Shown here piece after piece: positions 1,161 to 35,400 of a DNA stretch of 64,000 nucleotides (positions are counted from its first letter, which is position 1; each line of letters opens with the position of its first letter). This DNA is from Cyanoderma ruficeps (Eukaryota; Chordata; Aves; Passeriformes; Timaliidae), in NCBI GenBank assembly GCA_008694505.1, contig VZDJ01000063.1, positions 1,772,460 to 1,836,459 of the forward strand, read 5' to 3'. The translations under genes and the position numbers were made by a program. The notes under the pieces are model-generated. The model did no database searches. It worked only from the letters and a program-made list of their open reading frames with translations, and was not told where the DNA came from.

Positions 1161-1170
1161 TCCCCCGGCC

Positions 1171-10100: not shown

Positions 10101-13100
10101 TGAGGGAGCGACCGCAGGAAATGTTCACACTTTGGGATCAGGGAACACAAAATCCATCCCTTTTCCCCCAGAGTTCATAAAGCAGTGTGAGGACTGAGGG
10201 AAACCTGCACACCTCGGGGTCTACCAGGGAGCTCCTGGAGCTCCGTTCCCCGCTCTCAGAGGGGCTGGGCACACCCTCGTGTGCTGTTGGCTGGTGGTTT
10301 TGCCTTTCTGTGTTTGCAGGTGTGTGCCAGGCAGGTGAACCAGGCAGCCCTGGCCCGTGCTGTGGCTGTGCTGGGCAGCCTGTGTGCAGATGTTGGGCTG
10401 AGGGCACAGCTGGCCCAGAGCAGGCAGTGCTGGCAGGCCTGCCTGCAGCTGCTGGTAAGAGACTGACCTTTGGCAGGAAAACGTTCTTTTCCTCCAATAT
10501 TTGGTCCTACACCTCCCTAGTTTAATATTCAGTATTATATTCAGTATTCCCAGTATACAATATTCAGTATTCCCAGTGTGTAATATTCAGTATTCCCAGT
10601 GTGTAATATTCAGTATTCCCAGTATATAATATTCAAATATTCACCATTCCCAGTATACAATATTCAGTATTCCCAGTGTGTAATATTCAGTACTCCCAAT
10701 ATATAATATTCAAATATTCAGTATTCCCAGTATGTAATAGTCACTATTCCCAGTGTGTAGTACTCAGTAGTGCCAGTCTGTGAAATTCAATATTCACTGT
10801 GTAATATTCACTATTCCCAGTATATAATATTCACTATTCCCAGTATATAATACTCAGTATTCCCAGTATACAATGCTCACCATTCCCAGTATATAATACT
10901 CAGTATTCCCAGTATATAATATTCACTATTCCCAGGATATAATATTCACCATTCCCAGTATATAATATTCACTATTCCCAGTATATAATATTCACTATTC
11001 CCAGTATATAATACTCACTATTCCCAGTATATAATATTTACCATTCCCAGTATATAATACTCAGTATTCCCAGCATATAATATTCACTATTCCCAGTATA
11101 TAATACCCAACATTCCCACTATATAATATTCACTATTCGCAGCCCTCTGCCCTGTCTGTCTGCTCCCCTCACAGCCCTGAGCCCTTTCACTCCATTTGGG
11201 GTTTTGGGAGAAGGTGTCCCCCAAACCCACCCTCAGCTGTGTGTCCTTTAAAAATGTCGCCGTGCAGGGGAGGCTGTGCTGTGAGCACAGAAACTGAGGG
11301 TTCAGGGGGTGGGAAGGGATCCTTGTAACATCTCAAACACCCCCAGTCTGGGGTGTGCAGCCTTGGTACCAAACTCGTGGATTTGTGTCACAAAGGTGTC
11401 CCCAGATCTGCTTCTCCAAAAGCTTTTCCTGCCCCTGGAGCTGCCCAGGATGGGTCTGTCCTTGCCCTGGGGGCTGATTTTCCTGCCCCTGGGAGCTGAT
11501 TTTCCTGCCCCTGGAGCTGCCCAGGAAGAGCCTGTCCTTGCCCTGGGAGCTGATTTTCCTGCCCTCCCACAGGATGGGAGCTCTGATGGCAGCAGCCCTG
11601 AGTACCAGCAGTGCGTGTTTGCAGTGCTGGGGCTGATGATGAACATGCTGCTTGAATCCAACGCCACCATCCAGGTAGGCAGCATCCGGGGGTTTCGAAA
11701 ACGTGATGGTGTTGCAGGTTATTTTGAAGGGTAGTTGATGATTTAAGTAGGCTGAAAAGTGAAAAAAAAATATTACAGGATTTTCTCCTCTGCCACCACC
11801 TTCAATATACGAACCGTTATGAGGAGAACACAGAGTAAAGTGCATAAATTATCTTTCCATAGTGGTATGAATGGTTTTTTTGGAATCACTCTCCGGTTGT
11901 GCTGTGTTCTGAGATCCTGAGTTTCCCCTGAGTTTTCCCTGAGTTTCCTCTGAGTTTTCCCTGAGTTTCCCCTGAGTTTTCCCTGAGTTTTCTCTGAGTT
12001 TCCCCTGAGTTTTCCCTGAGTTTTCCCTGTGTTTCCCAGGACTTTGCTGTGCCCGTCAGTGGCAGGTGCCTGGCTCTGCTCAGCCATCAGGACGGCAGGA
12101 TTGTCACAGTAAGTCACCAGCAAAAGCTGGGTTTGGCTCTCCTGAGCTCTTCAGACCAAACCTGTGCCTTGTGCAGGAGCCTTTGAAGCCTAAAACATTC
12201 CTAAGAGCAATAAAGAAATAATAGGCCACTTTTACATTCATTTTTATATGGTTTGATGCAAGAGGTTTTCGTGAAATCTGCTTGATAGGAGCTCTTAAAA
12301 ACCACTTCAACATGAAACCCCTTAAAAATAAAGGAGCAAGAGCAGTTTGGGTGTTCAGCAGCTGTTTCTCTTTGCAGTTCTTGTGTGGAAATTATAATTT
12401 CACTTCTCTCAGTGCCAGCAGTGCTGGCCTGGTCTCTACCAGGGATTTGTATTTTTAATTTTTTAATGGATGAACACCCAGGGAATTGTGCTGGTCCCAG
12501 TTTGGGCTCATCTCTCCCTGTGCTGAAGCTCTGCTCAGTTACCAAGAAGTCTTAAAGATGTTCTTCATTAGATTCTGCAGTTCTGGGATTGTCTTAATTC
12601 CTCTGAATTTCTCCTTTAAGTACTTTAATTACTTATTTTTTTCCAGTCTCATTCTGCAAGAAACAGGATAATTAGGCTGCCTGGCCCAATAGATGTTTGG
12701 TTTTGCTTCTCTCTCCTTTTCCCCTCATTTAGAGAGCCACTGGAGTGCTGAGCCGGGTCCTGCCGGCGTCTCTCTCAGCTGTGGAGGAAGTGGTGAAAGG
12801 AGGAGTGGTGAAGAAAATGCTCAAATTCTTGAAAGTAAATCAAATTTCTTTTATTTCTGCAGCATTGTCCCCCTGAGCAAATCTAACTCCCCCTGTGTTT
12901 ATCCTCCTTTCCCTGGAGGATGGATGTGTCTGCATTGTGACAGCGCTCCCAGCTTTCATTTTAAGCCTGTTTTAAATTTCTTTTTTTAATTCTTGTTTTA
13001 ATTTTTGCTGTAAATCTGTGTCCAGCAGGTGTGGATTGTGCAGATCAAGTTAGTCTAGAAAAAAATCTGTGGCTCTGGGCTCTTGTCAAGGGGAGTTGAT

Positions 13101-15020
13101 TTGAAAAAGGGTTGGGCTGCAGAGATCCAGGGAATTTTGTGTGTTCGTGGCTGGCAGGAATTGAATGAGGTTTATGTGATTCACCCTGAGATAAATGCCC
13201 TGTGAAGGTTTTCATTTGAGATTCGGGCTCAGGCCTGTCCCCGTGGCCCCCAGGCTGTCGTGGGGCACAGTGGGGGTGAGCTGTGTTTGTTCCCTCTGCT
13301 TTCACCCACCAGGCCGGGGGACACCTCACGTCCAGCTATGCCATCAAGACCCTTTCCATCTGCACCAAGAGCAGCAGGAGAGCTCAGGAAGAGCTGCTGA
13401 GGTGGGATAAAAGTGAGTGAAACTCCTGATTTCACAGAATCACAGAGTCACAGAGTCACAGAGTCACAGAATGTGTAGGTTGGAGGAGACCTTCAAGGTC
13501 ATCGAGTCCAACCCAGCCCCAACACCTCAACTAAACCCTGGCACCACGTCCAGTGTTTCCTTAAACACATCCAGGGATGGTGATTCCACCACCTCCCTGG
13601 GCAGACCATTCCAGAACTTTATCACCCTTTCAGTGATAAACTTCTTCTTAATATCCAGCCTAATCCCTTTGCTCCCCCCCAGGTTTTTTAGGGAAACAGC
13701 CCCTGCAGGCAGCAGGGCACAGCTCAGGGTGGATTTGTCGAGGCTGGGAGTGTCCCAGTCCAGGAACAGAAAGATGAGCAGGCACACACAGCAGCAGATC
13801 AACGGAACAACTCCCCTTATTTCAAAATCTGACTCTGTTTATATACATTTGTACAGAAGTCAAGAGATTGGCTACTTCAGGTCGCCACCTCTCAACCTGG
13901 ATGGTGGACATCACCATCAATCAGCTCTTCTCTCAGAGGAGAAGTGTGTAAACATTCTGAAAATACACATTGTTCACATGAAGCTGCGTGAGAAACTTCT
14001 GCACCAAGACAGAAAGCAAAAAATTCACAACAGCTCAGGGGGTGTCTAACAGAAATCCCCTCTCCTGCCAGGGTTCCAGGTGCTGCTGAAGCTGCTGGAG
14101 TCCGGGGATGAGCTGACTGTGGGCAATGCAGCTTTCTGCCTCAGCCAGTGCCTGCAGCTGCCCGGGGCAGCCTCGTCCCTGCTGGGCTCCCGCGTGGTGC
14201 TGCTGCTGCTCCGGCAGGCCGGGGGGGACGCCCAGAGAGCCTCGGTGCAGCACAACTCAGCCATTGCCCTGGGCAGGCTCTGCCTGGCCGAGCCAAGGTA
14301 GGGCCACAAATCCCCTTTTTTGTTTCCTTTTTTTCGTTATTGGGTGATGATCCTTGAAAAAGTGTGAGTCAAGTTAGGCCCCAGAACTCCCTGGTTTTAT
14401 TTTCCTTTTTCGTTATTTGGTGATAATCCCTGAAAAACTGACCAGTGTGAGTCAAGTAAGGGCCTAAAACTCCCTGGGTTTATTTCTCTTTTTTGTTATT
14501 CAGTGATGATCCCTGAGAAACAGACCGGTGTAAGTCAAATCTGGAATTATTAGGTTAATTTATAGAAATACTCCATGACATTAAATATTATATATTCAAT
14601 ATTTAATTGCTTATATAATAAATAAAATATCTAATATCTAATATTTAACATATATTATATAACATATATTACNATAATAATTAAAATATTCATATGTTAA
14701 ATATATTTTTATATCATTCATTTAACTATTCTTCAGTATTATAATCAATATTGAAGAAAATTATTTATGTGCCTTTCTGAGGGCAATAATAATCTGGAAA
14801 GGGTTCGTTAAGAGTTTCTGTATTAACTCTGTGTTATTATTATTACCTAGAAACTCTGAAGCGGAAATTCTTGAATTTACACCCCTGAAAGTTTTAATTG
14901 AATTTACTTTCCGGTGACCCCGTGTTGCCGCGTTGTCTCTGCAGGCACCTGCAGCAGCTGAGGGAGCTCAATGGCTTGGCCATCCTCAACTCCTCCATGA
15001 AACACGTGCACGGCAGCTGA
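1171..15020 (+). CDS. TTC12: TTC12, tetratricopeptide repeat protein 12 (21 coding exons)
   Basis: TTC12 is a cytoplasmic factor needed to pre-assemble axonemal dynein arms; human loss causes primary ciliary dyskinesia. Coding exons: 1171-1234, 1953-2104, 2386-2416, 3010-3087, 3545-3666, 4253-4312, 4642-4713, 5067-5127, 5231-5419, 6242-6308, 6825-6913, 7467-7632, 9234-9326, 9485-9548, 10320-10454, 11573-11674, 12040-12108, 12733-12834, 13313-13412, 14072-14297, 14945-15020. All junctions are GT-AG and keep phase. The sum is 2118 nt, or 705 residues, the human length as I recall it. Residues about 106-213 form the TPR block ([42 protein letters not shown]). From about 275 to the end the protein is armadillo-like helical repeats ([41 protein letters not shown]). 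Exon 3 is tiny (31 nt) and weakly conserved, so it is the least certain exon. The start gives [16 protein letters not shown], close to the human N-terminus. Confidence 0.95.
1500..1655. repeat. 37-bp minisatellite, TTC12 intron 1
   Basis: About four copies of a 37-bp unit containing GTTTATTTACAGTGAAACC, nearly identical to one another, so recently expanded. Each unit carries a TTTATTTACAG|T stretch that resembles a 3' splice acceptor. Confidence 0.85.
1668..1800 (+). mobile_element. CR1 LINE fragment (3' end)
   Basis: Diverged end of a CR1 retrotransposon in sense orientation. It has the typical CR1 terminus: GGGAGGTGTCCCTGCC, then TTTTCCAACCCAAACCATTC, then a GATTC-type tail. It lies in TTC12 intron 1. 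Confidence 0.75.
2825..2955. repeat. About 45-bp tandem repeat, TTC12 intron 3
   Basis: Three copies of an AT-rich unit containing CCTAGGAATTATTG followed by a T-run and CTCTATTTTAA. It lies just before the pyrimidine tract of the exon 4 acceptor. Confidence 0.8.
3247..3375. repeat. 16-bp GGGATGGAGGGAGTTT minisatellite, TTC12 intron 4
   Basis: G-rich array of about eight units of 14-16 bp with alternating GGAGG and GAAGG variants. Runs of guanine on the transcribed-sense strand could form G-quadruplex structures. Confidence 0.8.
3800..4055. repeat. Two-copy tandem duplication, about 122 bp, TTC12 intron 5
   Basis: Two adjacent diverged copies of a block running from ATTTAAATACTCTGATT through TTTCAGGAATC and ATATTTGCTTTGCATTCTC, ending in a (TG)n tract. 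Both copies contain a TTTTTCAGGAATC acceptor-like site, but no exon fits in frame. Confidence 0.75.
5575..5985. repeat. Four-copy tandem repeat, about 100-115 bp, TTC12 intron 9
   Basis: Four diverged copies of a block with TTTTTAGAATCAGACTGATG, TTGTAGCTGAGCTGC and CATTTGTTTATAAATATTTG. Nothing in the unit codes for protein. Confidence 0.85.
7646..8585. repeat. 23-bp minisatellite, about 40 copies, TTC12 intron 12
   Basis: About forty copies of the unit CTCCTGCAGGGCTGAGAGA plus AAAT, starting some 15 bp after the exon 12 donor. Variants (CTGTAGG, AACCTCC) recur in blocks, showing higher-order duplication of several units. Each unit contains CTCCTGCAG|G, which resembles a 3' splice acceptor. 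Long minus-strand open frames across this array are artefacts of a 23-bp period with no stop codon. Confidence 0.95.
10517..11142. repeat. AT-rich minisatellite, about 23-bp unit, TTC12 intron 15
   Basis: About 27 copies of a unit like AGTATATAATATTCACTATT plus CCC, with ATATTCAGTATTCCCAGTG variants at the 5' end. The flexible TATATAAT cores suggest an unstable array. Confidence 0.9.
11924..12036. repeat. TTTCCCTGAG tandem repeat forming the exon 17 acceptor tract
   Basis: About eleven copies of a 10-11 bp unit, CTGAGTTTTCC. The last copy becomes CTGTGTTTCCCAG, the acceptor of TTC12 exon 17, so the repeat supplies the pyrimidine tract of a real splice site. Confidence 0.8.
13435..13690 (-). 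mobile_element. CR1 LINE, antisense, TTC12 intron 19
   Basis: Starts with ACAGAGTCACAGAGTCACAG-type units (the reverse of the CR1 tail), followed by GAGACCTTCAAGGTCATCGA and CTCCCTGGGCAGACCATTCC. This is the antisense 3' end of an avian CR1. The complement codes the familiar CR1 tail peptide [20 protein letters not shown]. Confidence 0.85.
13690..14045. mobile_element. Probable LTR or other transposon fragment
   Basis: Sequence between the CR1 and exon 20 with no coding logic. The stretch through CCTTATTTCAAAATCTG and GAGATTGGCTACTTCAGG has the look of avian LTR or LINE debris. I cannot name the family. Confidence 0.35.
14560..14770. repeat. AT-rich low-complexity tract with one N, TTC12 intron 20
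   Basis: TATATAATATTTAAT-type sequence with one unresolved base at 14673. Nothing else is seen. Confidence 0.7.
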
Positions 15021-17200: not shown

Positions 17201-17283
17201 CCAATTGGCGCAGGTTTTCGGGTTGTTTTTTTTTCTTTCCTGGGACAGGTTATTGGTTGGTGTCTGGCCTAAGCTCTTATAAA
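17201..17283 (+). promoter_or_regulatory. TATA/CCAAT promoter of the mucin-like ZP-C gene
   Basis: A TATA box (TATAAA, 17278-17283) is preceded by an inverted CCAAT box (ATTGG, 17252-17256) and a CCAATTGG palindrome at 17201. Initiation is expected near 17308. That would put the first in-frame ATG (17315) only a few bases from the cap, so the ATG at 17384 is the likelier start. A TATA promoter suggests tissue-restricted, strong expression. Confidence 0.6.
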
Positions 17284-17383: not shown

Positions 17384-20300
17384 ATGACTCAGGAGATGCT
17401 GGAAAAATTCCCCATCCTGGTGCTGCTGGCAGCCGGGCTGTTGGATTTGTCTGGTGAGTGATGGGCTTTGTTCCAGGCTCGAAAATCGCTGCTTTTGTGC
17501 CTCTTTTGCTCTGCTCTCGGGTGTGGGGCAGCTCTGGGGTGAAGGAGCAGCTTCTCCCTGTTCGTGCAGGGTTTGGGTGAAATTATTTCATTTGGTGCGA
17601 GCGGCCCCTCAGCAGGACATCGCTGCCCTGCTCAGTCCCCAAAGAAAATATTGTCTCTGTAGGGGAGAACAAAATAAAAATCCCATTTCCTGAGGGAGCA
17701 CTGAGGGTCAGGCTGGTGCTGCTGGAGGCTTGGTCAGGATCCCCTTTAGCCCTGACACGTCGTGCTGCCTCTCCTTTGGGAACAGCTGTCATTGATGTTC
17801 AATCTCTCGATATTTGTGACGCTGTGAGCTCAGCGCTGTGTTTGTGGTGCTCCCGGGGCTGTTGTCACTCTCAGCTGGGCTCCAGCTTTGCCTTTGCCCT
17901 TCGAGCATCCCTGGGAGGGCTCAGGAATTAACTGGGCTGGTGGAGGCAGGGCTGCGTCCTCAGGCAGGCTGTTCTCTCCAGGAAAGATGAACTTGGGAAG
18001 TGGCAACGGAATTTTCTAGCTAATCAAGGGTTTTCTTCTTTTTGTGAAGCTGCTAAACCTCTGCTTTGTCAAAAACCACGATTTAAATGCATAACACTTA
18101 AGCTTTTAGAGCCTGTCTTTCCTGGGCGGGTGCCTAAGGAAAAAAAATGCTTAAAGTTTTTTTGGGGGGAGGAAAATACGTTTTAATCTGCGGTTTGGAA
18201 ACTGTCATTTGGAACATCGACCTTCTGATGTGAAAACAGGAAAAAAAAAGTAAAATGTGTGGAGAAAAGAATTACCCTTTAAACAAGCACCAGCCTTTCT
18301 CAGTGACAAAGTGGCTGCTCTGGGGGTTGAGAAGTTGCTGAGTTCTCTGTGCTCTGTGCCCAAACAAACCTGCCTGGACGCCCTGCAGGGATCAGGGAGC
18401 TCCTGCTGGCGCTGGGATGCTGCAGGAGGGGCAGTGCTAAAGGACAGCCAGGGCAGGGAGCTCCTCTGGGTTTATTTTAATCTTGCTTGGCTCTGGAGGA
18501 GCTCGCAGCCTGTCCTTGGCCTGTCCTGAGGGTTTTCCTCTTCCTGGGAAAGGGATGAAGGTTGAGGGCTCCTCCCTGGCTGCTCTGGGGCCTGCACGAG
18601 GTGCTGGGGCAGCAGGGGAGGGGGTTTGGAACAGCTGGAATGGGNNNNNNNNNNNNNNNNNNNNNNNNNNNNNNGGGAATGGGAATGGGAATGGGATAGG
18701 ACTGGCCATGCCAGAGCTCCCGTGTGGCTCTGGTGCCCCAGTCCAGCCGTCCTGAGGTGCTGCTGGAGCAGTTCAGGGCTGGTTCCAGCTGAGCCAAAGG
18801 CTGCTCTCATTCCCCAGGTGCCTCCAGGAGCGCCGGCAGTGGGATGCCGGGGCTGAGCCCTGCCCAGAGCAACCCCGTGCCCGACGGTGCCTGGGCTGAG
18901 GTGACCCTTCACTCCCAGAGCCCAGGAGCTGATCCCACCCCTGGAACAACCTCTGAGCCCGTGTCCCAGGCAGGGAGAGCTGCAAACAGAACAGCTCTGC
19001 TGCCTGGGGCCGTGCCTGGGAGCCTGGCGGGGGCTGAGCTGCTGCACACAGCAGCCTGGAGAGCCCAGGATGGACACACGGCCCCTGGAAAGCTCTGGAG
19101 GGCCTCCACACAGGGATCACGGGCCCCCACAGCCCTGGAACTGCAAAGAGAAGCAGAAAATGCTCCTGGGGCTGGTCCCAGTTCCAGCTCTGGGCTGCCC
19201 CAGCCCTTTCCCAGTGCAGGGACACACCAGGACCCTGCCCAGCTCGCAGCTCTCTCTTCCCCCGCTGGCAGCAAGCACAGGGAGGTGCCCAGTCCCAAAA
19301 CTCCTCTTGTGACTCCAAGGCTCGATTTCCGCCCACCAAGCAGAGAAATGGCAGCATCTGCCTTTCCCCCCAGGGCTGGGGTGTCTGTGGGCAGGGCAGG
19401 GCAGGCCTGGCTGCCCACAGGGATGATTCCCACGGGGAAAAGGGCCACGGCCCCTCCTGGCCCCAGAGCAGGGGTCACACCTGCCCACCTGAGGAGGACT
19501 CAGAGCTCGGCTGCTGGAGTTACAGTGTCTGCAATGCCACCACAGCCAGCCCCAGGGCACCTTGGCTCAGCCCCTTCCAGCACAGCCCGGCCCAGGCCCG
19601 TTCAGTTTTCCCCTCTCGTGTCTCTGCAGCAGGAAACCACAGGCAGCAAAGGCACAAATTCAACCTCAGTTGTGACAAACGGCTCTGGACACCCAGCCCG
19701 GCTGCTGGGGAGCAGCACCTCTCACCCTGCTCCTCTCACCCTCCCACCAGGGAGTGAAAATCCTTCTTCGCTCTTGATGGAAGCTCCAGCTCCTGAGGAA
19801 TTCCTTCCCTCTCCATTCCAAGCTGGCACAAGTGATGGACAACAGCCCCTCTCTCTGCACAGGGCTCTCAGCTGCACCAAACACCTTCCCCCAGAGACCA
19901 ACAGGAGCTCCCAGGAAATGGCACTTCAGGGAGATGCTGCTCCTTGGGCAGTGACAGGGACCCCTGGGGAATCCCCCTCCCCTGAGAGCCCACAGCCTTC
20001 TCCAAGCTCATCCTCATCAATCCACTCGTGGATTTCCACATCAAAACCTTCCCCAACTACCAAAGGGCTCAAGGAAGGAACACCTGCCCTCTCTGCAGGA
20101 ATGCCCAGCTTTGGGAACAGTGACCTCCAGCCCTGGGATTCTGTCCCAGCAGGGCTTCAGCCTCCTGCTGCCTCTGCTGGGGTGCAGCCCCTGGGCCTCC
20201 ACACCCCGACCACCTCACCCACATCCCCTGGCTCTGGGTCCCAGCTCCCAGGAGCTTCTGCCCCTGCTGTGCCTCAGGGAGCCTTGGCTGGGAGGCTGCA

Positions 20301-23300
20301 GGTGAGCACAGGGAGAAGAAGCAAAGCTGGTTCTCCTCCACTGACCCCAGCAGCCAGGCCAGCCCCCAAAACTGACTCTTCTCCACTGACCCCAGAGGCC
20401 AGCCTTGTGCCCAAAATTCATTCTCCTCCACTGACCCCAGGAGCCAGTCCAGCCCCTAAACCTGGTTCTCCAATACTGTCCCCACCAGCCAGCCCTGTCC
20501 CCAAAACTGGTTCTCCTCCACTGATCCCAGGAGCCAGTCCAGCCCCTAAACCTGGTTCTCCAGTGCTGTCCCCACCAGCCAGCCCTGTCCCCAAAACTGG
20601 TTCTCCTCCACTGTCCCCACCAGCCAGCCCAGCCCCCAAAATTGATTCTTCTCCACTGATCCCAGGAGCCAGCCCAGCCCCCAAAACTGATTCTCCAGCC
20701 CTGTCCCCAGCAGCCAGGCCTGTCCCCAGCCCCTCTGGATCCCACAGCCACAGGCCCCAGGCTGTTCCCCTTCCCAGCCGTGTCCCTCCCAGCCCTGCCA
20801 AGCTGGGAGCTGCTGTCCCTGTCCTGCTCTCGTCCCCTGCCCAGGGAAGCCACCCCAGCTCCCCCACAGCTCCAGGGGTGCCCAGGGAGGTGCCAGCAGC
20901 CCTGGCACAGGCCCTGGGGCAGCAGTTCAGGATGTCCCTGGATGCAGCTGTCAAAAACCTCAGCACAGGCAGAGATGACCCCCCGACCCTGCTGCCCTGG
21001 TCCCCACAGCTGTCCTTCGTGCTGAGGAGCACCGATGGCACGATCTGCCTGCAGCCCATGCAGGATTCCCCTCTCCCCACAGAATTCCCCAATTCCAGCA
21101 TTGGGGGGTTGCTTTCCATCCAGCAAATCCTGGCAGCACCCAATTCCTCAGGGCTGGACCTTGCAAACCTCCCCCTGAGCCCTTCCAGCTTGGTGCTGGT
21201 CAGGCCTGTGTTTGTCCTGCTGCCCAGTGACAGGGGACACCCACAGGTGCTGTCCCCTCCTCGGGGTGACCTCAGGATGGCCACAGCTGTGGGGACAGCT
21301 GGGAGCAGCCAGGACATCCCAGTGGAAACCAGTCCCTCTTACCCCGCTGGGAAATCTGTGGGACCTGAAACTGCTCTGCCCACTGTGTCCGAGCAGCAAG
21401 CAGAGAGAGAAAAGGTCAATTCTGAGCCAGGGGCAGCTCGTGCTGTCCCCACAGCCCTCAGGGGCTTGTCCTCAGCTGTCACCTCAGCCCCAGGTCATGT
21501 GCTGGACCCCAGGATGAGCCCCACGGCGCAGACCATGCCCAGGCTGTCTGAGGAGATGCAGATTCCTGCTCCCCATCCCCAGCAGGCCACGGGCACTGCT
21601 TTGCTCTCCGTGTCAGCAGAGCCTGGCACCTCCCCTGTGCCCTCCGAGCTGGTGTCCACTCAGAGCCCCCAACCTTCCCCCACAGTGTACGTCTCCACTG
21701 AAAGGCCACAACCTTCATCATCTTCATCTGGAGCTCCTTTGGTGCCAGCAGAGGAGCCCCGGGGCTCCCCAGAGCCTGCCCAGCCTGGGAGCAGCTCAGG
21801 GGCTGCAGGGCAGGTGGGCCCAGTGCCCACCCCCAGCCCAGCCCCTGCCCCCTGCACAGCCTGTGTGCCCCCCAGGGCCCTCCCCAGCACCAAACCCCTG
21901 CAGCCCACCCCTCACAGGCTCCCAGGCCCCGAGCTGCTGCCATCTCCAGGTGTTCCCAGCACCTCCTTGGTGCTTCCAGCTGGGAATGAACACGGCGAGT
22001 CCAGCACGGGCGGCACAGCCCGGCCTGGAGTCCCCATGCCGGCCACAGCAGCTCAAACCCCCATCCCTGCTGGAAAACTTCATCTCACTCAGCGTTTGGA
22101 GCTGGAACTCACCCCCACTGTGCCTCAGCCCTTCATAACCACACAGAGACCAACAGCAGCCCCGCAGCAGACTCCGTTTCCCACAGAGGTCCAAAGGAAG
22201 ACAGCGATTTCTGGGAAGGTTCTGGCTGTGGTGACCCGTGCAGGGACATCTGCCAGCTCTGCTGCCCCTGCCCCAGCTCCTGCTGAGCTCTCCTCCCAGG
22301 CCAGCACGGGACAGAGCACCAGGCCAGCTGAAACCAGCAGCAGTGCAGGAAAGGCAGGAGCTGGCAAATCCCTGGGGAGCAGCGTGTCTGCACTGATCAC
22401 CCCAGGGACAGCACAGCCCCCGGGGAACCGGCTGGGTGTGACCCCAGCCCAGGCAGCTGTGCCCACGGGCTTTGTCCCTGCCCCGGGGGGACAGCCCACA
22501 GCCACACCGGGCCCAGCCCAGGCTGCAGCAGCGGGAACTCCTGTCCCTGCAGCCGAGGGTGACACTGTCACTGCTGCACTCAAAGAGCTGCTCCAGCTGC
22601 CAGCCCCAGCCCTGCTGCCAGCCCCAGCCCTGCAGCCTGACCCAGCCACGCAGCCTGACCTAGCCATGCAGCCTGACCCAGCCATGCAGCCTGACCTAGC
22701 CATGCAGCCTGACCCAGCCATGCAGCCTGACCCAGCCGTGCAGCCTGACCCAGCTCTGCAGCCTGGCCCAGCAGTGCAGCCTGACCCAGCCATGCAGCCT
22801 GACCCAGCCCTGCAGCCTGACCCAGCCCTGCAGCCTGACCCAGCCGTGCAGCCTGACCCAGCTCTGCAGCCTGACCCAGCCCTGCAGCCTGACCCAGCCC
22901 TGCAGCCTGACCCAGCCGTGCAGCCTGACCCGCACACGGTGGTGCTGCTCGGCTCCTCAGGGCTGCTGGGGAGCCGGGAGGGGGCAGCAGGAGAAGATGC
23001 AGCCCCCAGCAGGCGGCTGCAGGCTCAGGCAGCTGTGTCTGCTGCACAGCCAGCGTCACCCGGACTGCCGCTGGAGGAGGGGTCCCACCCTCTGGAGAAC
23101 GTGTCCCACCCTCTGGAGAACGAATCCCAGCCTTTGGAAAATGAATCCCACCCTCTGGAGAAAGTATCCCACCCTCTGGAGAATGTATCCCACCTTCTGG
23201 AGGAGATGTTCCACCCTCTGGATGAGTTATCCCACCCTCTGGAGAATATATTCCACCCTTTGGAGGAGGAATTCCACCCTCTGGAGAACATATCCCACCC

Positions 23301-26300
23301 TCTGGAGAACATATCCCACCCTCTGGAGAAGGTGTCCCAGCCTCTGGAGAACATATCCCGCCCTTTGGACAACGAATCCCACTCTCTGGATGTGTCCCAC
23401 GCTTTGGAGAATGCATCCCATCCTCTGGAGAACATATCCCACCCTCTGGAGAATGTATCCCACCTTCCAGAGGAGATGTTCCACCCTCTGGATGAGGTAT
23501 CCCACCCTTTGGAGAACATATTCCACCCTCTGGAGAACATATTCTACCCTCTGGAGGTGTCCCAGCCTCTGGAGAACATATCCCACCCTTTGGAGAACGA
23601 ATCCCACCCTTTGGAGAACGAATCCCACCCTTTGGAGAATGTATTCCACCCTTTGGAGAATGTATTCCACCCTTTGGAGAATGTATCCCACCCTCTGGAG
23701 GACGGGTCTCATCCTCTGCAGAACATATCCCAGCCTCTGGAAAATGTACCCCACTCTCTGGAGGTGTCCCACCTTTTGGAGAATGCATCCCACCCTCTGG
23801 ATGAGGTATCCCACCCTCTGGAGAATGTATCCCACCCTTTGGAGGAGGTATTCTACCCTCTGGAGAACATATCCCACCCTTTGGAGGAGATATCTCACTC
23901 TCTGGAGGTGTCCCACCCTCTGGATGAGGTGTCCCACCCTATGGAGAATGTATCCCACCCTCTGGAGAACATATCCCACCCTCTGGAGGAGATGTTCCAT
24001 CCTCTGGACGAGGTATCCCACCCTCTGGAGAACATATCCCATGCTCTGGATGAGGTGTCCCACCCTCTGGAGGAGGATGCCATGGAGCTGGGCACTGGTC
24101 ACTCCAGCCCAGGCTCTGCTGCCCTGTCCCCCACTCCCCCAGCATCTCCTGCCCCTGCTAATGAGCTCGTTAATGAGGGCACTAATGAGCCTGCTGCTGA
24201 TGGCCCCGAGCTGTTCCCAGGCAGGGCCCTCACCCAGGTCCCCCCGGAGCGCCCCTGGCAGTCCCCGGGGGGACACCCCTGGCTGGGCGCTGCGGGCACT
24301 GCCCCGGCCCAGGGGCTGCTGCTGAGCACGGAGGAGGCGGAGGAGGAGGAGGGCAGGACCAGGGAGGTGACAGACGGAGCAGCCGAAGGCTCGGGGACAG
24401 CGGTGACACTGGAGCCCGGAGCCCTGCGGAGCGGCTGGCACCAGAGGAGGGGGCTGCCCTCGGATGTCACCGTGCTGGACGGGCAAGTACCCCCGGCTCC
24501 CGGCTTTGGGTGTGCTGCTGCAGCCTGCCTGGGTTTCATTTCATTCCCTTTTTTCCCCCTTNTCCCTTTTTTTCCCTTTTTTCCCCTTTTTTCCCCTTTT
24601 TCCCCAGCCTCGCCGTGGTGAGCGACTGGTGCGGCTCCGGGAACCACTCGGTGCGGCTGAGCCTGAGCCCTGCAGGGGACACGGGGACCGCTGGGACCGA
24701 CCCCCAGGACACCTTCCTGGCCCTGGTGGCCCTGCAGAGCAACAGCAGCCGGGCCCTGCTGCAGATTGACTCGTGCTGCGTGTCCCCCTCTGCCGGCCCC
24801 GGGGCTGCGGGGGCTCAGTGCTGCCTCTTCAGCAGGTGGGAATGGGGATTTAGGGAATAAACCATCCTGCTCCCCCCTGGCTGCTGTCACAGGGGTGCAG
24901 CATCCCCTCCATGGACAGAGCAGTGCAGGGGTGCCAGCCTGCCTTCCCCACACCCCCATTCCAGCATCTGGAGGAGGTATCCCAACCTCTGAAGGTTTCC
25001 CACCCTCTGGAGATGTCCCAGCCTCTGGAGGAATCTCACCCTCTGAAGGTGTCCCAGCTTCTGGAGATGTTTCACCCTCTGGAGTTATTCCACCCTCTGG
25101 AGGTGTCCCACCCTCTGGAGGTATCCCACCCTCTGGAGGTGTCCCACCCTCTGGAGTTATCCCACCCTCTGGAGGTGTCCCACCCTCTGGAGGTGTCCCC
25201 CCTCTGGAGTTATCCCACCCTCTGGAGTTATCCCACCCTCTGGAGGTGTCCCACCCTCTGGAGGTGTCCCAGCCTCTGGAAGTGTCCCCCCTCTGGAGTT
25301 ATCCCACCCTCTGGAGTTCTCCCACCCTCTGCTCGAGGCCAGGGCAGCAGGAGGATTCATGACAGGGGTTTGTAAACCCTCTGGGGTGTGAAATGTGTGC
25401 TCTGGGCAGCTCAGACTGCAGCAGAGCCAACCTCCTAAAACAGCTCTGCTGCTCCCCTGAGCAGGGCAGGCCCAGCCTGGAATGCTGCTGCTTTGTGGGT
25501 TTTCCTGCAGCCGGGATGAGGGCGCAGGGCTGTGGTGTGGAGTTTGTGCAGAGCTGGCCTTGCTCTGCTCAGGGCGAGCTGGGATTTGGAGCTGTTGGCT
25601 CTTTGTCCCTGCCAGGCTGCCCTGGGAGTGCAGACACATCCAGCTGCTGAAGGGTGGCAGCTCCAGAGCCTCCAGCTTCTCCATCCAGCTGTTCCAGATG
25701 TTGAACCACTCCGTGGCCTACCTGCACTGCCAGCTGAGGGTGTGCCTGCCGGGCCAGCCGGGATGTGAGCAGGTACTGAGGGTGCCCCTGTGCCCACAGC
25801 GGGGCTTTGGGATTTGGTGCTTCCAGAGTCTCCACACCAGGACCTGGCTCACACCAAGGTCACCCCGTGGCCACCCAATCCCCCGTTAAAGTCCAGGAGA
25901 GGAGTTCATGGTGTGGAATGCTGGCAGTGGTTGGTAATCCCTAAGAAAAGGAAATCAGGGAATCAAGATTTACACGTGTGCTGGTCCAGGGGTTGGCAAT
26001 TCACCTTTTGGAATGACAGCAGAGGTGGGATACCCTGAGGACAGCCGGGGCCCTGGGGCAGGAGGTTCTGTCCAGGACATTTCCAGGTGTTTTCCATGTC
26101 TTTCCAGGGCTGCTTGGAAAGTGAGGAGCCCCTTCCCCAGCCCAGTGACAGGACCAGCCATGGAAACCTGCACAACCTGGTGTCCCTCGGGCCCGTCTGG
26201 AGGATGAGCAACAGGTCTCTCTACAAACCAGTGGAAGGTGGGGCTCTCCTGCTTTTATTTCCCTTGCAGAGGTTTTTGCTCAGCTTTTCCTGCTGCAGGA

Positions 26301-26898
26301 AAACCAGCACATTTTAAATAATTTTCTTAATTAGATTATATCCCGACAGCTCCTCACCTTTGCCTTGGCTTCCCTGAATCCCAGACATGGGGGTTAATTA
26401 GTGTCCAGCCAGGAGACACAGCCAGATGAACCCTGTGAGGGAACTGAAGGTTTAGGAGGAGAAAAGGGGAGAAAAATGAGGCAGAAATTTCTCTGTCTGT
26501 AAAGGATTGCAGCATTTTGGTGCAGAGTGAGGTTGGCCATAAGTCAGGAGCGTTCATAGGTGAAATACAGAAGCCGGTTAATGTTAATTAAATGTTTATA
26601 GCTATTAGAAAAGAGTGACACTGAGCTGGTAAACCATGAGAGGCTTCTCAAAACCCACCGACACCGCCCCTAACCCCTCGAGTCTTTATCTGTTTGTGCA
26701 AAGAACGTTTCTCACTGCTGGATTCCCTCTCTCTGTGTGCTTGCAGGGGCTGGTCCTGCCGTGCTGCTGCCCGTCCTGCTGGGATCCCTCACTGCCTGTG
26801 CTGTGCTGGGCTCTGCTGTCATGGGGCTGTGGCTGCACCACCGGCACAGAGCCAAGCCCAGCCGGTGTCCCCTGCCTGCGGAATTCCGTGGGCTGTGA
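17384..26898 (+). CDS. Novel mucin-like transmembrane protein with ZP-C-like module (6 exons)
   Basis: I do not recognise this as a named gene. Exons 17384-17453, 18818-24482, 24608-24835, 25616-25772, 26108-26237 and 26747-26898 splice in phase (6402 nt, 2133 residues). Exon 1 is a signal peptide (MTQEMLEKFPILVLLAAGLL). Exon 2 codes residues 24-1912, very rich in Pro, Ser, Thr and Ala like a mucin, with three internal repeat zones. Exons 3-5 code a region like the C-terminal half of a zona pellucida domain: LLQIDSCCVSP, ECRHIQLL, SFSIQLFQ, VAYLHCQLRVC. Exon 6 codes a transmembrane helix (about 2088-2112) and a basic tail, HHRHRAKPSR. Intron 2 is GC-AG. A single type I membrane mucin is the best reading. 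ZP modules polymerise or bind TGF-beta-type ligands; which applies here is unknown. An in-frame ATG at 17315 would add 23 residues. ZP-N is not recognisable. Confidence 0.8.
18645..18674. other. Assembly gap (30 N) inside a GGGAAT repeat
   Basis: Thirty unresolved bases flanked by GGAATGGG and GGGAATGGGAATGGG. A collapsed hexamer repeat in intron 1 of the mucin-like gene. It does not touch the coding exon that starts at 18818. Confidence 0.95.
20329..20720 (+). repeat. Coding repeat: PxPKTGSPPLxP units in the mucin-like exon
   Basis: Residues about 528-658. Roughly eight 16-20 residue units built on ASPAPKTGSPPLSPP, with 48-60 bp DNA periods. Proline, serine and threonine dominate, as in mucin O-glycosylation domains. 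The frame stays open throughout. Confidence 0.85.
22632..22935 (+). repeat. Coding repeat: QPDPA pentapeptide array
   Basis: Residues about 1295-1396. About twenty copies of a 15-bp unit (CAGCCTGACCCAGCC) coding QPDPA with M, L, V or T joining units. Highly uniform, so a recent expansion. It is acidic and proline-rich and would form an extended stalk. Confidence 0.9.
23074..24083 (+). repeat. Coding repeat: HPLEN(V/I)S heptad array, about 49 copies
   Basis: Residues about 1445-1779. The 21-bp unit CCACCCTCTGGAGAACATAT plus C codes HPLENIS, with variants HPLDEVS, HPLEEMF and 18-bp HPLEVS. Unit lengths change only in steps of 3 bp and no stop appears in the sense frame, as expected for translated sequence. 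The spacing of E, N and S resembles no named domain that I recognise. Open frames in other frames or on the minus strand across this array are shadows. Confidence 0.9.
24483..24607 (+). other. GC-AG intron 2 of the mucin-like gene
   Basis: Phase demands that exon 2 end after GACGG, followed by the rare donor GCAAGT, which is the consensus for GC-AG introns. The intron ends in a long T/C tract (one N at 24562) and CCCCAG. The nearby GT at 24487 would break the frame into exon 3. Confidence 0.75.
24608..26237 (+). other. ZP-C-like module, exons 3-5 of the mucin-like gene
   Basis: Residues 1913-2084. Exon 3 opens with DWCGSGNHSVRLSL and ends with FLALVALQSNSSRALLQIDS and CCVSP, like the ZP-C strand before the CxxTP motif. 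Exon 4 has ECRHIQLL, a SFSIQLFQM strand and YLHCQLRVCLPGQPGCEQ, matching the near-invariant F..F...YLHC...VC pattern of ZP-C. Exon 5 opens with GCLESEE. The cysteine pattern supports the assignment. The N-terminal half of a full ZP domain is missing or too diverged to see. Confidence 0.7.
24965..25335. repeat. Intronic copy of the CACCCTCTGGAGGTGTCC repeat
   Basis: About nineteen 18-21 bp units related to the coding HPLE repeat lie in intron 3. Here indels break the frame (HPLEVS reading shifts near 25197), and no splice sites join the array to exons 3 or 4 in phase. It appears to be a non-coding duplicate of the exon 2 minisatellite. Confidence 0.85.
26747..26898 (+). CDS. Last exon of the mucin-like gene: transmembrane helix and tail
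   Basis: Codes AVLLPVLLGSLTACAVLGSA then VMGLWL, a single hydrophobic helix, then a stop-transfer cluster HHRHRAK and a short tail ending in EFRGL before TGA at 26896-26898. It shows the protein is membrane-anchored. Confidence 0.8.
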
Positions 26899-29484: not shown

Positions 29485-32400
29485 ATGAGTGCGGAGCGGG
29501 GCCGGCCCCTGGGCAGCCTGACCGTGTTCAGCAGGGAGGATTTTGAGGATGACTGGCTGCGGGTGGCCAGCGGGGGCTTTGGCCACGTGTACCAGGTGAA
29601 GCACAGGAGGTGGAGGACGGTGTACGCAGTGAAGTGCTCCCCGTTCCTGCTGCAGGACTCCAGCCTGGACAGGTAACCCCTGCTCTGCTCTCTGCTCGGC
29701 TCTGCCCAGCCCAGCCCCACGGCTTTGGGTGGGTTTTGGTTTGGATCCTTCCCAGGATGGGTTTGGGGATAAAAATCTGTGGGGAAGAGCTTCTGCTGCT
29801 TGGGAAGGAGAGGGTTGGGTACCCAAAGGTGCTCTGGGTTCTGCCTTGCCCTGTCCTGTGTGTGGATGAGCAAAGGGACACAAGGAACACAGGGAATAAA
29901 ACAGGGCTGAACCCCAGGGCTGAGCACCTTAAACACGGATAAAAGCAGCCTGGTGGCCTCTTTGCAGCTTGCACTGGACATTGGGGCTGATGTGTATCAA
30001 TCAAACTGAATTAATCACCAGAATCCCCAGGTTTAAAGAAGAGGGGCAGAGGATTTACAGCTGGATTTGCTGCCCTGCTCCTGTAGCCTCCAGACATCTC
30101 TTTCCTCTCTGTGCTGCGCCTGCAGCTCCCCTCTGCTTCCTGCTCTGTCTGTCCCCTGCAGAGACTCCTCTGGTGCCCACCTTGTGTCTGGAGATGGGGC
30201 AGGGCCAGCTAATCACACCCACTGCTGATAACACCTCCAATACAGGCACGGCTGATGGGAAAACAGCAGAGCTGGTGGAGTTATTTAATTGAAAGTTTGA
30301 TTCCTTTCAATTTGGAAGGACCCTGCCTAGATAAAAATCTCACTCTCGTGTGATTTCTTGCTACTGACAACAACTGAGCTCAGGCTGAGCGGTGACTGTT
30401 CTCAGTTTGCTCTGCAGATATTACATTTGCATTTTGTTCTCATTTGGGGGGGGAAGGCGTCAAATAATCAGTTTTACTTCTGTGTCTTATCAATTGTAGT
30501 AAAATACCTGAGATTCCTCAAGCCCTGGGTCTGCCTCACCACGAGGACCCTGCTAGAGGAAGTCTGGCAGAACATTCTGCTTGGCTGAACCATTTTAGAT
30601 CAATTACTGGCCGGGCCTAATTGCTGGCAGCTCAGCTCCGTTCCCAGGGTGTGCTTTTTAAAGGCACTCCTGGCACTTTGCTGCTTGGCTGCTCCTGGAG
30701 CTCCCCAGGCACCCCAAACTCGTTCAGCAGGTCGGGAGAGGTGAAACTTGGGAGAATTTGGAGAAACAGGTCTGCCAGAGCTGGCAGAGATGTGCCTGGG
30801 TCCCCCCTGGGGGCAGAGTCACCGTGCCCAGGGACAGGAGCTGCAGGCACAGGTGGAGCTGCAGGAGCTGTGCCTGCATCCTGCTGCCTGGGAAACCCCG
30901 GGAATTCCATGGGATCACCGAGTGTTTTGGGCTGGGAGGAGCCTTAAAGCTCATTCCATCCCATCCCTGCCGTGGCCAGGGCGCCTTTCACCATCCCAGG
31001 CTGCTCCAACTGGGCTTTGGACACTTCCAGGGATGGAGCAGCCTCTGGGAATTCCATCCCAGCCCCTCCTCACCCTCTCAGGGGAGATTCCTCCCCAGTC
31101 TGCCATCCAACCCTGCCCTGTGGCTGTTTAAAGCCACCTCACCCGTGTGACAAGCACAGGCTCTCTGTCGTCACTGCCAAGGATTGAAATAAATGCAAGT
31201 TGTTCATCTCTTTTTCCTGTGGTGGCTGATTTTGCCCAAATAAACCTCATCTCGGGCAGTCACAGCACCTTCTGTGCCAGGTTTTAGTCTGCAGAAGATC
31301 ACTGTGTGGCAGCATTATCATCAGCTCAAGGGGGAATTTGGGATGAATTGTTTTGGGGTAGGCAGTGCCCAGCAAGGCTGGGTATCACTGAGTTACTACA
31401 GAGCTACTGAGCCTGTGAATCAACTGATAAAATTTCTTGCTCTCACTGTATTTTTATTTTTTATTCTCAATTTTCCAGGACCAGCATGAACTGTCTAATG
31501 GAGGAGGCAAGCAAGATGGAGAAAATCAAATTCCAGCACATTGTCACCATCTACGGGGTGTGCAACAGCCCCCTGGGGATAGTGATGGAATATATGGCCA
31601 GGGGCTCCTTGGAGAGAATCCTTCCCACTCACAGGATGTCCTGGCAGCTGAAATTCCGGGTGATCCATGAGATGGGCTTGGCCATGAATTTCCTGCACAG
31701 CATGAGCCCTCCCCTGCTGCACTTGGATCTGAAGCCAGGGAATGTCCTCCTGGATGGGAACATGCACGTCAAGGTACGGCCTCGGTGCTGCCTTTGCTGC
31801 TTCTCAAACAGGAGCGAGGTTATTTCTGCCAAGCCAGTCCAGAATCCCAGTAAATCAGGTTCTTCAGGAACACTCCATGAAGGATTGACCCGGGGGAGTT
31901 TTGCTGGTGAGCAAATTACACGGTGTTCTCCAGATCATCCCGGGAGTCTGGGCCAGCACTGGGAATTCCAGGCTCCAGCTGGGCTCAGTGGCTGCAGCTT
32001 GTCAGGCTTTTGTCAAGTCCCACTGCCCACACCTCCCCCTGTCCCTGATCCCAAAGGATGGGGGCATGTTCAGGTGATAGCAGGAGGGCTGAGTGTGAGC
32101 ATTTTGGGGCAGTTTCCCTGTTTCTCCTTGCAGATCTCCGACTTTGGGCTGTCCAGGTGGATGGAGCAGTCCAGCAGGATGCAGTACATCGAGAGCTCAG
32201 CCCTGAGGGGCACCCTGAGCTACATCCCCCCCGAGATGTTCCTGCAGAACAGCAAACCCCCGGGCATCAAGTACGATGTGTACAGGTGAGGGCTGTCCCC
32301 GGGCTCTGGCGCACAGCAAGGGGGGCTCAGTTTGTTTAAATTCTGATTTTCTGCCTCCGAAAATGTGGGGAGGACACGGGGCTGCCCCGAGCTCAGTGGT

Positions 32401-35400
32401 GGAGACTGAGAGGGAGGGGGATTCTCTGTGGATAATCATCACCCCAGTGCACCCTCCCAAGGCTGCATTGCCCCGGGTGCCATCACACCCTGTTCCTATA
32501 AAAACCAGCGAGGTCAGAACTGCCAGTGCTGCTCTTCCATCAGTCGCTGCTGAGATTGATTTTAAAACAATTCTGCTGAGACTGATTTTATAACAATTTT
32601 AAACGCTATTGGCCTATCTGCCTCAGTGTTCAGCTTCATTTTGGTCAGGGGCAGATGGAGAGGAGATTTCAATTTTGGTTTTGTCCTTTTGGGCAAGGAG
32701 CTTTGCAGCACATCCACACGATCTCCGTGCCCACGTCTGGAAATTGCTCAGCTCCTTGGCCTTTACAGCACAGAGTTACCCGGGGCAAGAGGGAAAGGAG
32801 AATTTGCATGGTCACAGGAGCTTGCAGGAGCCAAAGGCTCTAAACTCCAACGTGAATAAAGTGGAAAAAAGGCACTGAGGGTCTGATTTTGACAGGAAAG
32901 GCTCCAAATCACAGCACAGACCCTTTGGAGGGTGATGACCCCACTCCTAATGGGGCAGAATCACAAGGCCTGAATCTTTTGGCCTGGGGGATGAAATCCT
33001 TCTGCTCTGGAAGATGAAATCCTTCCCTCCTGAAGAACTCCCTTCCTGATCTCCCTGTTTCTCAGGAAGGCAGAAGCAATAAGTTCATTCCATGTCCTCT
33101 CCTCTCCCACAGCTTCGGGATCGTCATCTGGGAGGTTCTCATGCAGAAGAAACCTTACGCAGGTAAACGCCAACCCTGCACCTGTGGGATGGCCATTCCA
33201 GCCCTTTTCCCAGGGCAAACCCCCCGGGTGTGCTGCTTTTCCCCAGGGGCCAACATGATGGCCATCATCGTCAAGGTGGCGGCGGGGAAGCGGCCGGGGC
33301 TGGAGCTGGTCAGGGACGACTGGCCCGGGGAGTGCCACCAGATGCTGGACCTGATGAAGAGGTGCTGGGACCAGGACCCCAAGCGAAGGCCGAGCTTTGC
33401 AGGTGGGACTGGGGTGTGGAGTAGCCAAGGGACAACCCCATGAGGTGACAATAAATTTGTACCCAGTTCTCCCAGTTGCGTCTCCGAGGTTTGGCAGCTT
33501 GGTGCCCTTTTGCTGTCACACATCCCCTTCGTGCCTTCTCCCTCCCTTCCCACGGGGGTCCTGCCTGGCTCTGGAGCCCGGGGCAGCCTGCCCAGCTGTG
33601 CTGCTGTGCCCTGGCAGATATCCCAGTGGAGACAGACGTGCTGCTGGCGCTGATCCAGAGCCTGGTGCAGGACCCCGAGAACGAGCGGCTGGTGAGGAAG
33701 ATGTCCCACAAACCAGCCCTCTCCAGGAGCCAGCAGGTGAGGAACCCCCCGGGCAGTCAGGAAGTTTCTCTGGGTCTGCTCCTTGCTCTTGCCAGGCTGT
33801 TTCCCCTCCCAAAGGTGCAGCTCAGCATCTGCTGCACGGGTTGAGCTTCTCTAATTCATTTATGGGGATTGCACGCTTGCAAATTGATTAACAAATGCGC
33901 TAAATGATAGATAGTCCGAGAGGAAAACCCTCTTCTGGACCTGCTCAGGTGAAGTGGGTTTATTGTGGTGGCTTCGGTCACTAAAAGAAACTCAAGCAAA
34001 CCCAGGATCACAGGGTTCTGTTCATGGCACAAAGCTGAGGATGTCCCAGTTTGAACTCTTACAGAAATTTAAAATAAAAGCTTTGAATTCCCTTTTTTTT
34101 TGGCTAAGAAAAAAAAACAGGATAGTCACAATGTAATCCCAGCTACTGCAGCAGTTATGGCTAGAAAACAGGGAGAGATAGGAGCTGGGAATTATTGCTA
34201 TTTAGAGGCTTTTTGCCAAGCTTTGCAAGAAACCAGAGACCTGAAGAGGTGGGGGCTTGGGGGGTCCCTAAACAACAAAGGAAGCAATTTTGGGATGCTG
34301 CCCTGCAGTCAGGAAGCAGAATATGTGTGTGTTTGGGAGTAATTGGGCGCAAGGAGGAAAAGCTCATGGATATCCAGAGATCATCTTCAGCCTCCCCCAT
34401 TCCTGCTGTGTCGTGGTTGGCTTAGCTGAGTTTGGGGTGCACAAACAGGATGGATAAAAAAACTCTCAAATGATGGCACAAAACTGCAGAGCAGCAGCGA
34501 AGCACTTTGTGCAAACATTAAAGGATGCAAATGAACACTCTGTCTTACCCTTTTTCTTTCCTCCTTTCTGAAAACAAGGGTGACAAAGAGGAGTTCGCCT
34601 TCCCCCGAGACACCAGGAGTGGGGGTAAGTAGGGGACTGGCTTTAGAATTGAAAATTAAAGAAGGGGAAGCTATAAAAGTTGTCTATTTTATTTAGAAGG
34701 ATGTGGCTCATAAGGTTTTCCATGTGGGTGACATTTTAAGTTAAGAAAAATGAACTATTCAGGAAATACTGTGAGAGAGAGGCCAAATGTCCCCAGTGCA
34801 TGTCTGGCCTTATTTTACATTCCTTATCTCTCAAATGGCTTCATTTCATGTCATCCTATGAAGAGTCACAAGCTCTCCCTCTCTGATGGTAGTGAGTTTG
34901 ATTCTCACATGGGACACAATTAAAATGTTGGGTTTTATCATCTTATCTTCTGTTAGAGGCAGGATTAAAGAATGGGAAATGCAGTTTTCGTGGTTGGACT
35001 CAGTGTTTATTCATTCTTATCTATGGCACAGTCTCACAAGTCGTGAGCTCTGCTAGCAAGGTAGAAAATGGATCTCTCACTAACTCTTTCCATGGTCTTT
35101 AAAGTACTAATTACCCAGTAACGAGATGACACCTGTATTATTTATGCTTTTTACCCAATAACCAAATACCCATGGCCTGCAATGTGGACCCTTTCACACA
35201 ATTACCAAAAAAACACCCAAACCCATGAAGAAGAGGGTGAAAGAAGAAGCCAACACCCCGAACCCTCCCTCTTGCCCCATATATATTACTATACCATATA
35301 TATGATTACATACTAAAACCTTAAATCCTGAGTTTTCCACTTCTACTCAAACTCCACACCCACAGTCCCAGTGCTATCACTCCATTTCGGAAACCTGTTC

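Follow-up and report, generated by a model that had tools for sequence, protein, structure and literature searches.

A predicted vertebrate membrane protein with a standalone ZP-C domain, encoded between TTC12 and ANKK1 in Cyanoderma ruficeps

Here, we propose that a conserved gene, present once in the genome and predicted between TTC12 and ANKK1 in a 64,000-nucleotide stretch of Cyanoderma ruficeps contig VZDJ01000063.1 (hereafter the window), encodes a type I membrane glycoprotein whose ZP-C domain stands alone, is closed and does not polymerise, a reading to which we give slightly better than even credence. This is based on a sequence that predicts a signal-peptide-like start, a cysteine-poor and Pro/Ser/Thr-rich stalk, one membrane-adjacent ZP-C domain, a strand resembling the external hydrophobic patch (EHP) of ZP proteins, a helix and a basic tail. 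The gene itself is genuine, and its unusual feature is its architecture, in which the second half of a ZP module alone appears to stand behind a long stalk. An earlier reading of the same DNA (the original prediction) had described an unnamed membrane protein with an orphan ZP-C-like module at this position, and in this it was right: the domain is a real ZP-C and no ZP-N was found with it.

The ZP-C domain and its EHP-like strand

The ZP-C-like pattern, for which the original prediction had suggested a PF00100 search as a check, is borne out by a score of 26.7 bits for the last 248 residues against a cut-off of 24.6 bits; the whole protein, at 22.0 bits, lies below it, as do two of seven orthologues, the other five scoring above. 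We assign the domain to ZP-C on the over-cut-off match of the C-terminal part and on the ZP-C fold of a model of the falcon orthologue. Among solved structures, the nearest chains bear the name uromodulin, and one PDB search listed only uromodulin and GP2. The EHP-like strand, NLVSLGPV (residues 2063-2070; 26174..26197, + strand), was identified from an alignment of 65 rows and from the falcon model, where it is the last strand (positions 164-171). It is nearly invariant (N in 62, S in 64, G in 63 and P in 64 of the 65 rows). Thus, alignment, falcon model and hydropathy indicate an EHP-like strand together with a C-terminal membrane anchor, as in a complete ZP module.

The first half of such a module was not found. 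A canonical ZP-N has four cysteines. Pfam detects ZP-N in both of two exon pieces taken from other ZP genes of the same genome and in none of eight proteins of this family (the window protein and seven relatives, including a partial one of 407 residues). For 62 of 71 proteins, cysteines could be counted over the 200 residues that precede ZP-C: 55 have none, three have one and four have two. Among 63 stalks of at least 250 residues, 16 (one belonging to a TTC12 fusion) carry at least four cysteines within some 120 residues, but none of these 16 has more than two in the stretch of 200 residues ahead of ZP-C. Pfam placed no domain other than ZP-C over or near its cut-off in the eight proteins, spectrin-like and MCP matches being rejected as far under theirs; SEA was absent from all eight at E values up to 1, no SEA control having been run, and NCBIfam gave no match in three of three proteins. 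What is found is therefore a ZP-C without ZP-N in a predicted secreted or surface protein.

In light of this architecture, what might the domain do? In uromodulin, according to the account in PMC7737619, the EHP strand prevents polymerisation until hepsin cleaves ahead of it, and is required for secretion. A basic site (RXXR or [RK][RK]R) between ZP-C and the EHP-like strand occurs in only 3 of 68 rows of this family and is absent in the window, and a strand that is well kept in a family without a kept cleavage site suggests that it remains in place. The stalk would be glycosylated and project outward from the cell surface, and the membrane-adjacent ZP-C would stay closed, its groove occupied by the EHP-like strand of the same protein and the family keeping no basic protease site that would free it. 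Being closed, it would not polymerise, and may instead serve, next to the membrane, as an anchor or a binding domain in an apical extracellular matrix, a role that would parallel that of the ZP-C half of nematode LET-653.

Several observations weigh against this proposal. Only the best of five models of the falcon ZP-C reached a pLDDT (predicted local distance difference test) score of 70, and the ZP-N control was scanned as short pieces, the proteins at full length. In some proteins, one basic residue or a pair of them precedes the EHP-like strand, so that another protease could cut there. Nine cysteines are found in the ZP-C of 18 of 24 fish rows, and an uneven count might point to a bond between molecules. 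Heavy O-glycosylation of the stalk is also uncertain, given a Ser+Thr content of 18%.

The gene, its stalk and its relatives

In the window sequence, six exons (all on the + strand; start phases 0, 1, 2, 2, 0 and 1) join in phase to encode 2133 residues with a single stop at the end, just as originally claimed. The predicted product runs from a signal peptide through a stalk of about 1890 residues to the ZP-C domain, a transmembrane helix and a basic tail. Exon 1 (17384..17453) carries the start and the signal peptide, completed by the first residues of exon 2, in an N-terminus resembling those of other birds (e.g. MQEKFPIFILIAAGLLDLSGAS). Exon 2 (18818..24482) encodes the stalk (residues 24-1912) in one open frame. 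The first half of ZP-C (DWCGSGN, SCC, QCC) lies in exon 3 (24608..24835), as placed by PF00100 and the alignment, and the second half (FSIQLFQMLNHSVAYLHC) in exon 4 (25616..25772), as placed by PF00100 and a PDB match. Exon 5 (26108..26237) holds the end of ZP-C and the EHP-like strand, and exon 6 (26747..26898) the transmembrane helix, basic tail and stop. The helix that had been claimed corresponds to a hydropathy peak of 2.03 over 19 residues (approximately residues 2087-2108; 26755..26820, + strand).

Intron 2 alone (24483..24607, + strand) is of the GC-AG type, its donor being GCAAGT; introns 1, 3, 4 and 5 are GT-AG. The alignment of a falcon database protein continues through junctions 2/3, 3/4, 4/5 and 5/6 with no gap at any of them, and a gap of one residue falls 10 residues past junction 2/3. 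The database models from swallow, hawfinch and jackdaw are odd at the intron 2 junction, and in the first two the frame continues past LDG as QV. Given the same exon end, the Q codon needs C as the second base of the intron, so the GC donor is probably common to swallow, hawfinch and the window species and may account for the odd swallow and hawfinch models, and perhaps for that of jackdaw as well.

The stalk warrants the label "mucin" only in part, the term being generous. Of the Pro/Ser/Thr-rich repeats originally described, what stands is a long, open, Pro-rich exon (Pro 17%); Ser+Thr amounts to 18%, with at most 32 per any 100 residues, and the tandem arrays found cover 1740 of the 5665 bases of exon 2, so most of the stalk is not tandemly repeated. 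By the usual rule, mucin Pro/Thr/Ser domains contain about 40% Ser+Thr, which is not reached here or elsewhere in the family (15-26% across 20 proteins measured, with at most 38 per any 100 residues). The coding arrays detected on the + strand have units of 45 bp (20322..20728), 18 bp (QPDPA; 22605..22931) and 21 bp (SHPLEN; 23071..24076), the last contributing 22 N-x-S/T sequons at residues 1451-1762. HPLE units number 26 in the window, 15 in swallow, 14 in jackdaw and one in ostrich, and are absent from the other 16 of the 20 proteins, hawfinch included.

One part of the stalk, at approximately residues 702-858 (20851..21321, + strand), has been kept among birds, crocodilians and lizards and went undetected in fish. 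It has one cysteine and the motif LSPSS..LV[RK]PVF (LSPSS..LVKPVF in the window). It belongs to no known family by Pfam (one weak match in one of seven members, E 0.11), a PDB search gave one match (E 1.2), and its AlphaFold2 model (pLDDT 42.6) was too poor for a fold search. Four cyprinid proteins weakly matching the motif were set aside, their matches being too short to count.

What is judged to settle the status of the gene is the existence of related proteins in other species. Three protein database searches, with residues 1905-2133, a sturgeon protein and a lizard piece as queries, gave 40, 50 and 5 hits, or 70 distinct proteins in all. Judging from how the listed representatives are named, these come from songbirds, manakins, falcon, owls, parrots, pigeons, duck, quail, ostrich, tinamou, emu and other birds, and beyond birds from alligator, crocodile, lizards, geckos, sturgeon and many teleosts. 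Identity to the window protein over the searched part ranges from 81% (jackdaw) down to 34-38% (fish), and the window keeps 33 of 33 conserved sites. In a tree of 30 ZP-C rows picked from the 65 aligned, fish, lizards, crocodilians and birds are each split off by one branch (with support of only 93/80 for lizards), and the window adjoins swallow, followed by hawfinch and jackdaw. The tree thus tracks the species tree, which fits vertical descent of one gene.

Placed by its relatives, the gene is old and common to fish, lizards, crocodilians and birds. Its gain in sauropsids or birds, one of two origins originally offered, does not survive, because sturgeon and teleosts carry the gene, one teleost model being fused to ANKK1. 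The listed representatives of the 70 relatives include no mammal, turtle, snake, amphibian or shark; the searches covered candidates of about 1170-3730, 660-2100 and 200-630 residues and required shared five-residue words, so that absence from the hits is not proof. Loss in mammals, the second origin offered, fits their absence from the named species, and the gene is a candidate for one lost in that group.

Alternatives and comparable proteins

One alternative is a growth-factor co-receptor in the manner of betaglycan (TGFBR3) or TGFBR3L, whose ZP-C would bind a ligand of the TGF-beta family and whose stalk would serve as a spacer or glycan carrier. Both of these proteins have a membrane-anchored, ligand-binding ZP-C, and their relation to the window gene is a match of sequence and fold only. 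That match is weaker than those of uromodulin and GP2, which outscore them; in addition, betaglycan differs in having orphan domains and ZP-N (as described in PMC11865472) and TGFBR3L in being short. We regard this option as improbable on the sequence at hand.

Neither do we expect, at a similarly low level of belief, that the protein caps or anchors ZP filaments at their ends, being shed at the membrane so that the EHP departs and the open groove takes in a ZP-N and linker from a different ZP protein. The EHP of uromodulin does give way to the linker of the subunit that follows (reported in PMC7737619), and here the EHP-like strand is conserved, as is the first of the two Phe residues in the FXF site (F in 65 of 65 rows). 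However, the site reads FQM (Q in 64 and M in 63 rows), a Met thus replacing the second Phe, and the family shows neither a ZP-N nor a conserved basic cleavage site; with no ZP-N found, such a cap would be unable to lengthen a chain.

An ordinary, polymerising egg-coat or uromodulin-like ZP protein is disfavoured and quite unlikely. The ZP-C, EHP-like strand and transmembrane tail would be shared with such a protein, some database names in the family read uromodulin-like 1, and the best PDB chain comes from an entry titled egg coat filament, but ZP-N was not found despite a working control, nor any other Pfam domain over its cut-off. Uromodulin and GP2 are the best sequence matches among solved chains, and GP2 has an LGP-type motif after its ZP-C. 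Uromodulin differs, however, in its ZP-N, EGF and D8C domains, cleavage site, GPI (glycosylphosphatidylinositol) anchor and filament formation (features given in PMC7737619), and GP2 forms fibrils (title of PDB 8xc5).

Two further types of surface protein compare by layout. UMODL1 has EGF, SEA and other domains before its ZP module, whereas here only ZP-C is over or near a Pfam cut-off. Transmembrane mucins likewise combine a long N-terminal stalk, a membrane-proximal folded domain and one transmembrane helix, but MUC1 and MUC16 have a SEA domain, which was not found here, in place of ZP-C and a higher Ser/Thr content.

An artefact is practically negligible as an explanation: the GC donor of intron 2, the repeat-bearing exon and the messy automatic models might suggest a decaying gene, against which stand the relatives in fish, lizards, crocodilians and birds and the intact conserved sites, and a chance frame is ruled out by these relatives and by the 1888 stop-free codons of exon 2 (across 300 first-order Markov sequences matched to it in composition, longest open runs averaged 236 codons and peaked at 473).

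Among the closest parallels in architecture are nematode proteins; no nematode is named among the hits of the three protein searches. The standalone ZP-C proteins described in PMC7456536 (T01D1.8, F46G11.6 and CUTL-19) mostly have a signal peptide, lack ZP-N, mostly lack an R/K cleavage site, and are old and conserved. They differ in that two of their three subfamilies tend to stop before the EHP strand and the third mostly has predicted GPI anchors, and the passages concerned mention no long stalk or transmembrane helix. LET-653 of C. elegans has a mucin-like Pro/Ser/Thr-rich region directly before ZP-C, lying between ZP-N and ZP-C, and its ZP-C part suffices for localisation and tube shaping, according to the portions of PMC4970718 and PMC11304992 that treat it; by the same accounts it differs in having PAN domains and ZP-N before the mucin region, in being cleaved and in having no transmembrane domain.

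Locus, copy number and significance

The promoter that had been proposed corresponds to CCAAT/ATTGG and TATA boxes at 17201..17283 (+ strand), located by pattern match only: TATAAA is at 17278 and CCAAT/ATTGG at 17201, 17252 and 17289, the last lying downstream of the TATA box. Both neighbours are also where they had been placed. Exons of TTC12 (3544..13414, + strand) were found by tblastn of an emu model (P0022) in which TTC12 is fused to the ZP-C gene, and exons of ANKK1 (29509..37051, + strand) by tblastn of merganser (P0030) and snakehead fish (P0061) models in which the ZP-C gene is fused to ANKK1. Beyond the window, the link to TTC12 is therefore known from a single bird, and that to ANKK1 from a single bird and a single teleost. 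A godwit model (P0027) joins the ZP-C gene to a "phenylalanine--tRNA ligase" with PF03147. According to PMC5900934, a paper on dopamine receptors, both ANKK1 and TTC12 are located upstream of DRD2 throughout gnathostomes, and the relevant passage mentions no intervening gene. Within the gene, intron 3 holds a non-coding 18-bp array (24973..25331, + strand) akin to that of exon 2. The unit CACCCTCTGGAG has 16 exact copies in the exon 2 coding array at 23071-24076, 12 in the intron 3 array and no further occurrence on the + strand of the window, which suggests that a minisatellite spread between the two.

The gene is single-copy in its own genome (1.03 Gb): the strong matches of a ZP-C search are its own four exons only, and with the next match at E 0.03 no close paralogue was accepted. 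The conserved stalk region is also single-copy, one other match (L010, E 0.077) being unrelated sequence by eye. A six-frame PF00100 search of this genome gave 19 matches, none within the window because exons are scored apart. Two of the 19 belong to one gene on the same contig, approximately 1.05 Mb away (L004; C50:722280-725510), another ZP gene with a ZP-N exon, ZP-C exons and, judged by eye, EGF-like sequence.

ZP-C had long been described as confined to complete ZP modules, a profile search reported in PMC1479692 in 2006 having found no ZP-C-only protein, and in 2020 ZP-C alone was found in nematodes, with the suggestion that other phyla might share it (PMC7456536, in the section concerned). 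We found no published account of a vertebrate ZP-C-only protein or of this gene in a search that left most subscription papers outside its reach; TGFBR3L might be another such protein. The portion consulted of a vitelline-membrane proteomics study of two thrush species (PMC7652871) reports uncharacterised proteins, none of which could be linked to this gene.

Taken further, our proposal leads to a tentative and rather unlikely picture of a permanently closed, membrane-tethered vertebrate ZP-C family that might dock, cap or nucleate, at the apical surface, filaments built of other ZP proteins, that would predate the split between ray-finned fish and land vertebrates, and that would have been lost in mammals, whose ZP matrices manage without it. 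For the locus itself, which databases label with more than 10 automatic names (among them mucin-5AC-like, proline-rich protein 36-like, NACA-like, uromodulin-like 1, and part of TTC12 or ANKK1), the result fixes an identity. A family of vertebrate proteins maintained from sturgeon to birds also answers the suggestion of PMC7456536, as worded there, that other phyla might have standalone ZP-C proteins. In zebrafish, the family further supplies a naturally occurring ZP-C that has its EHP-like strand but no ZP-N, in an animal that allows its removal and observation.

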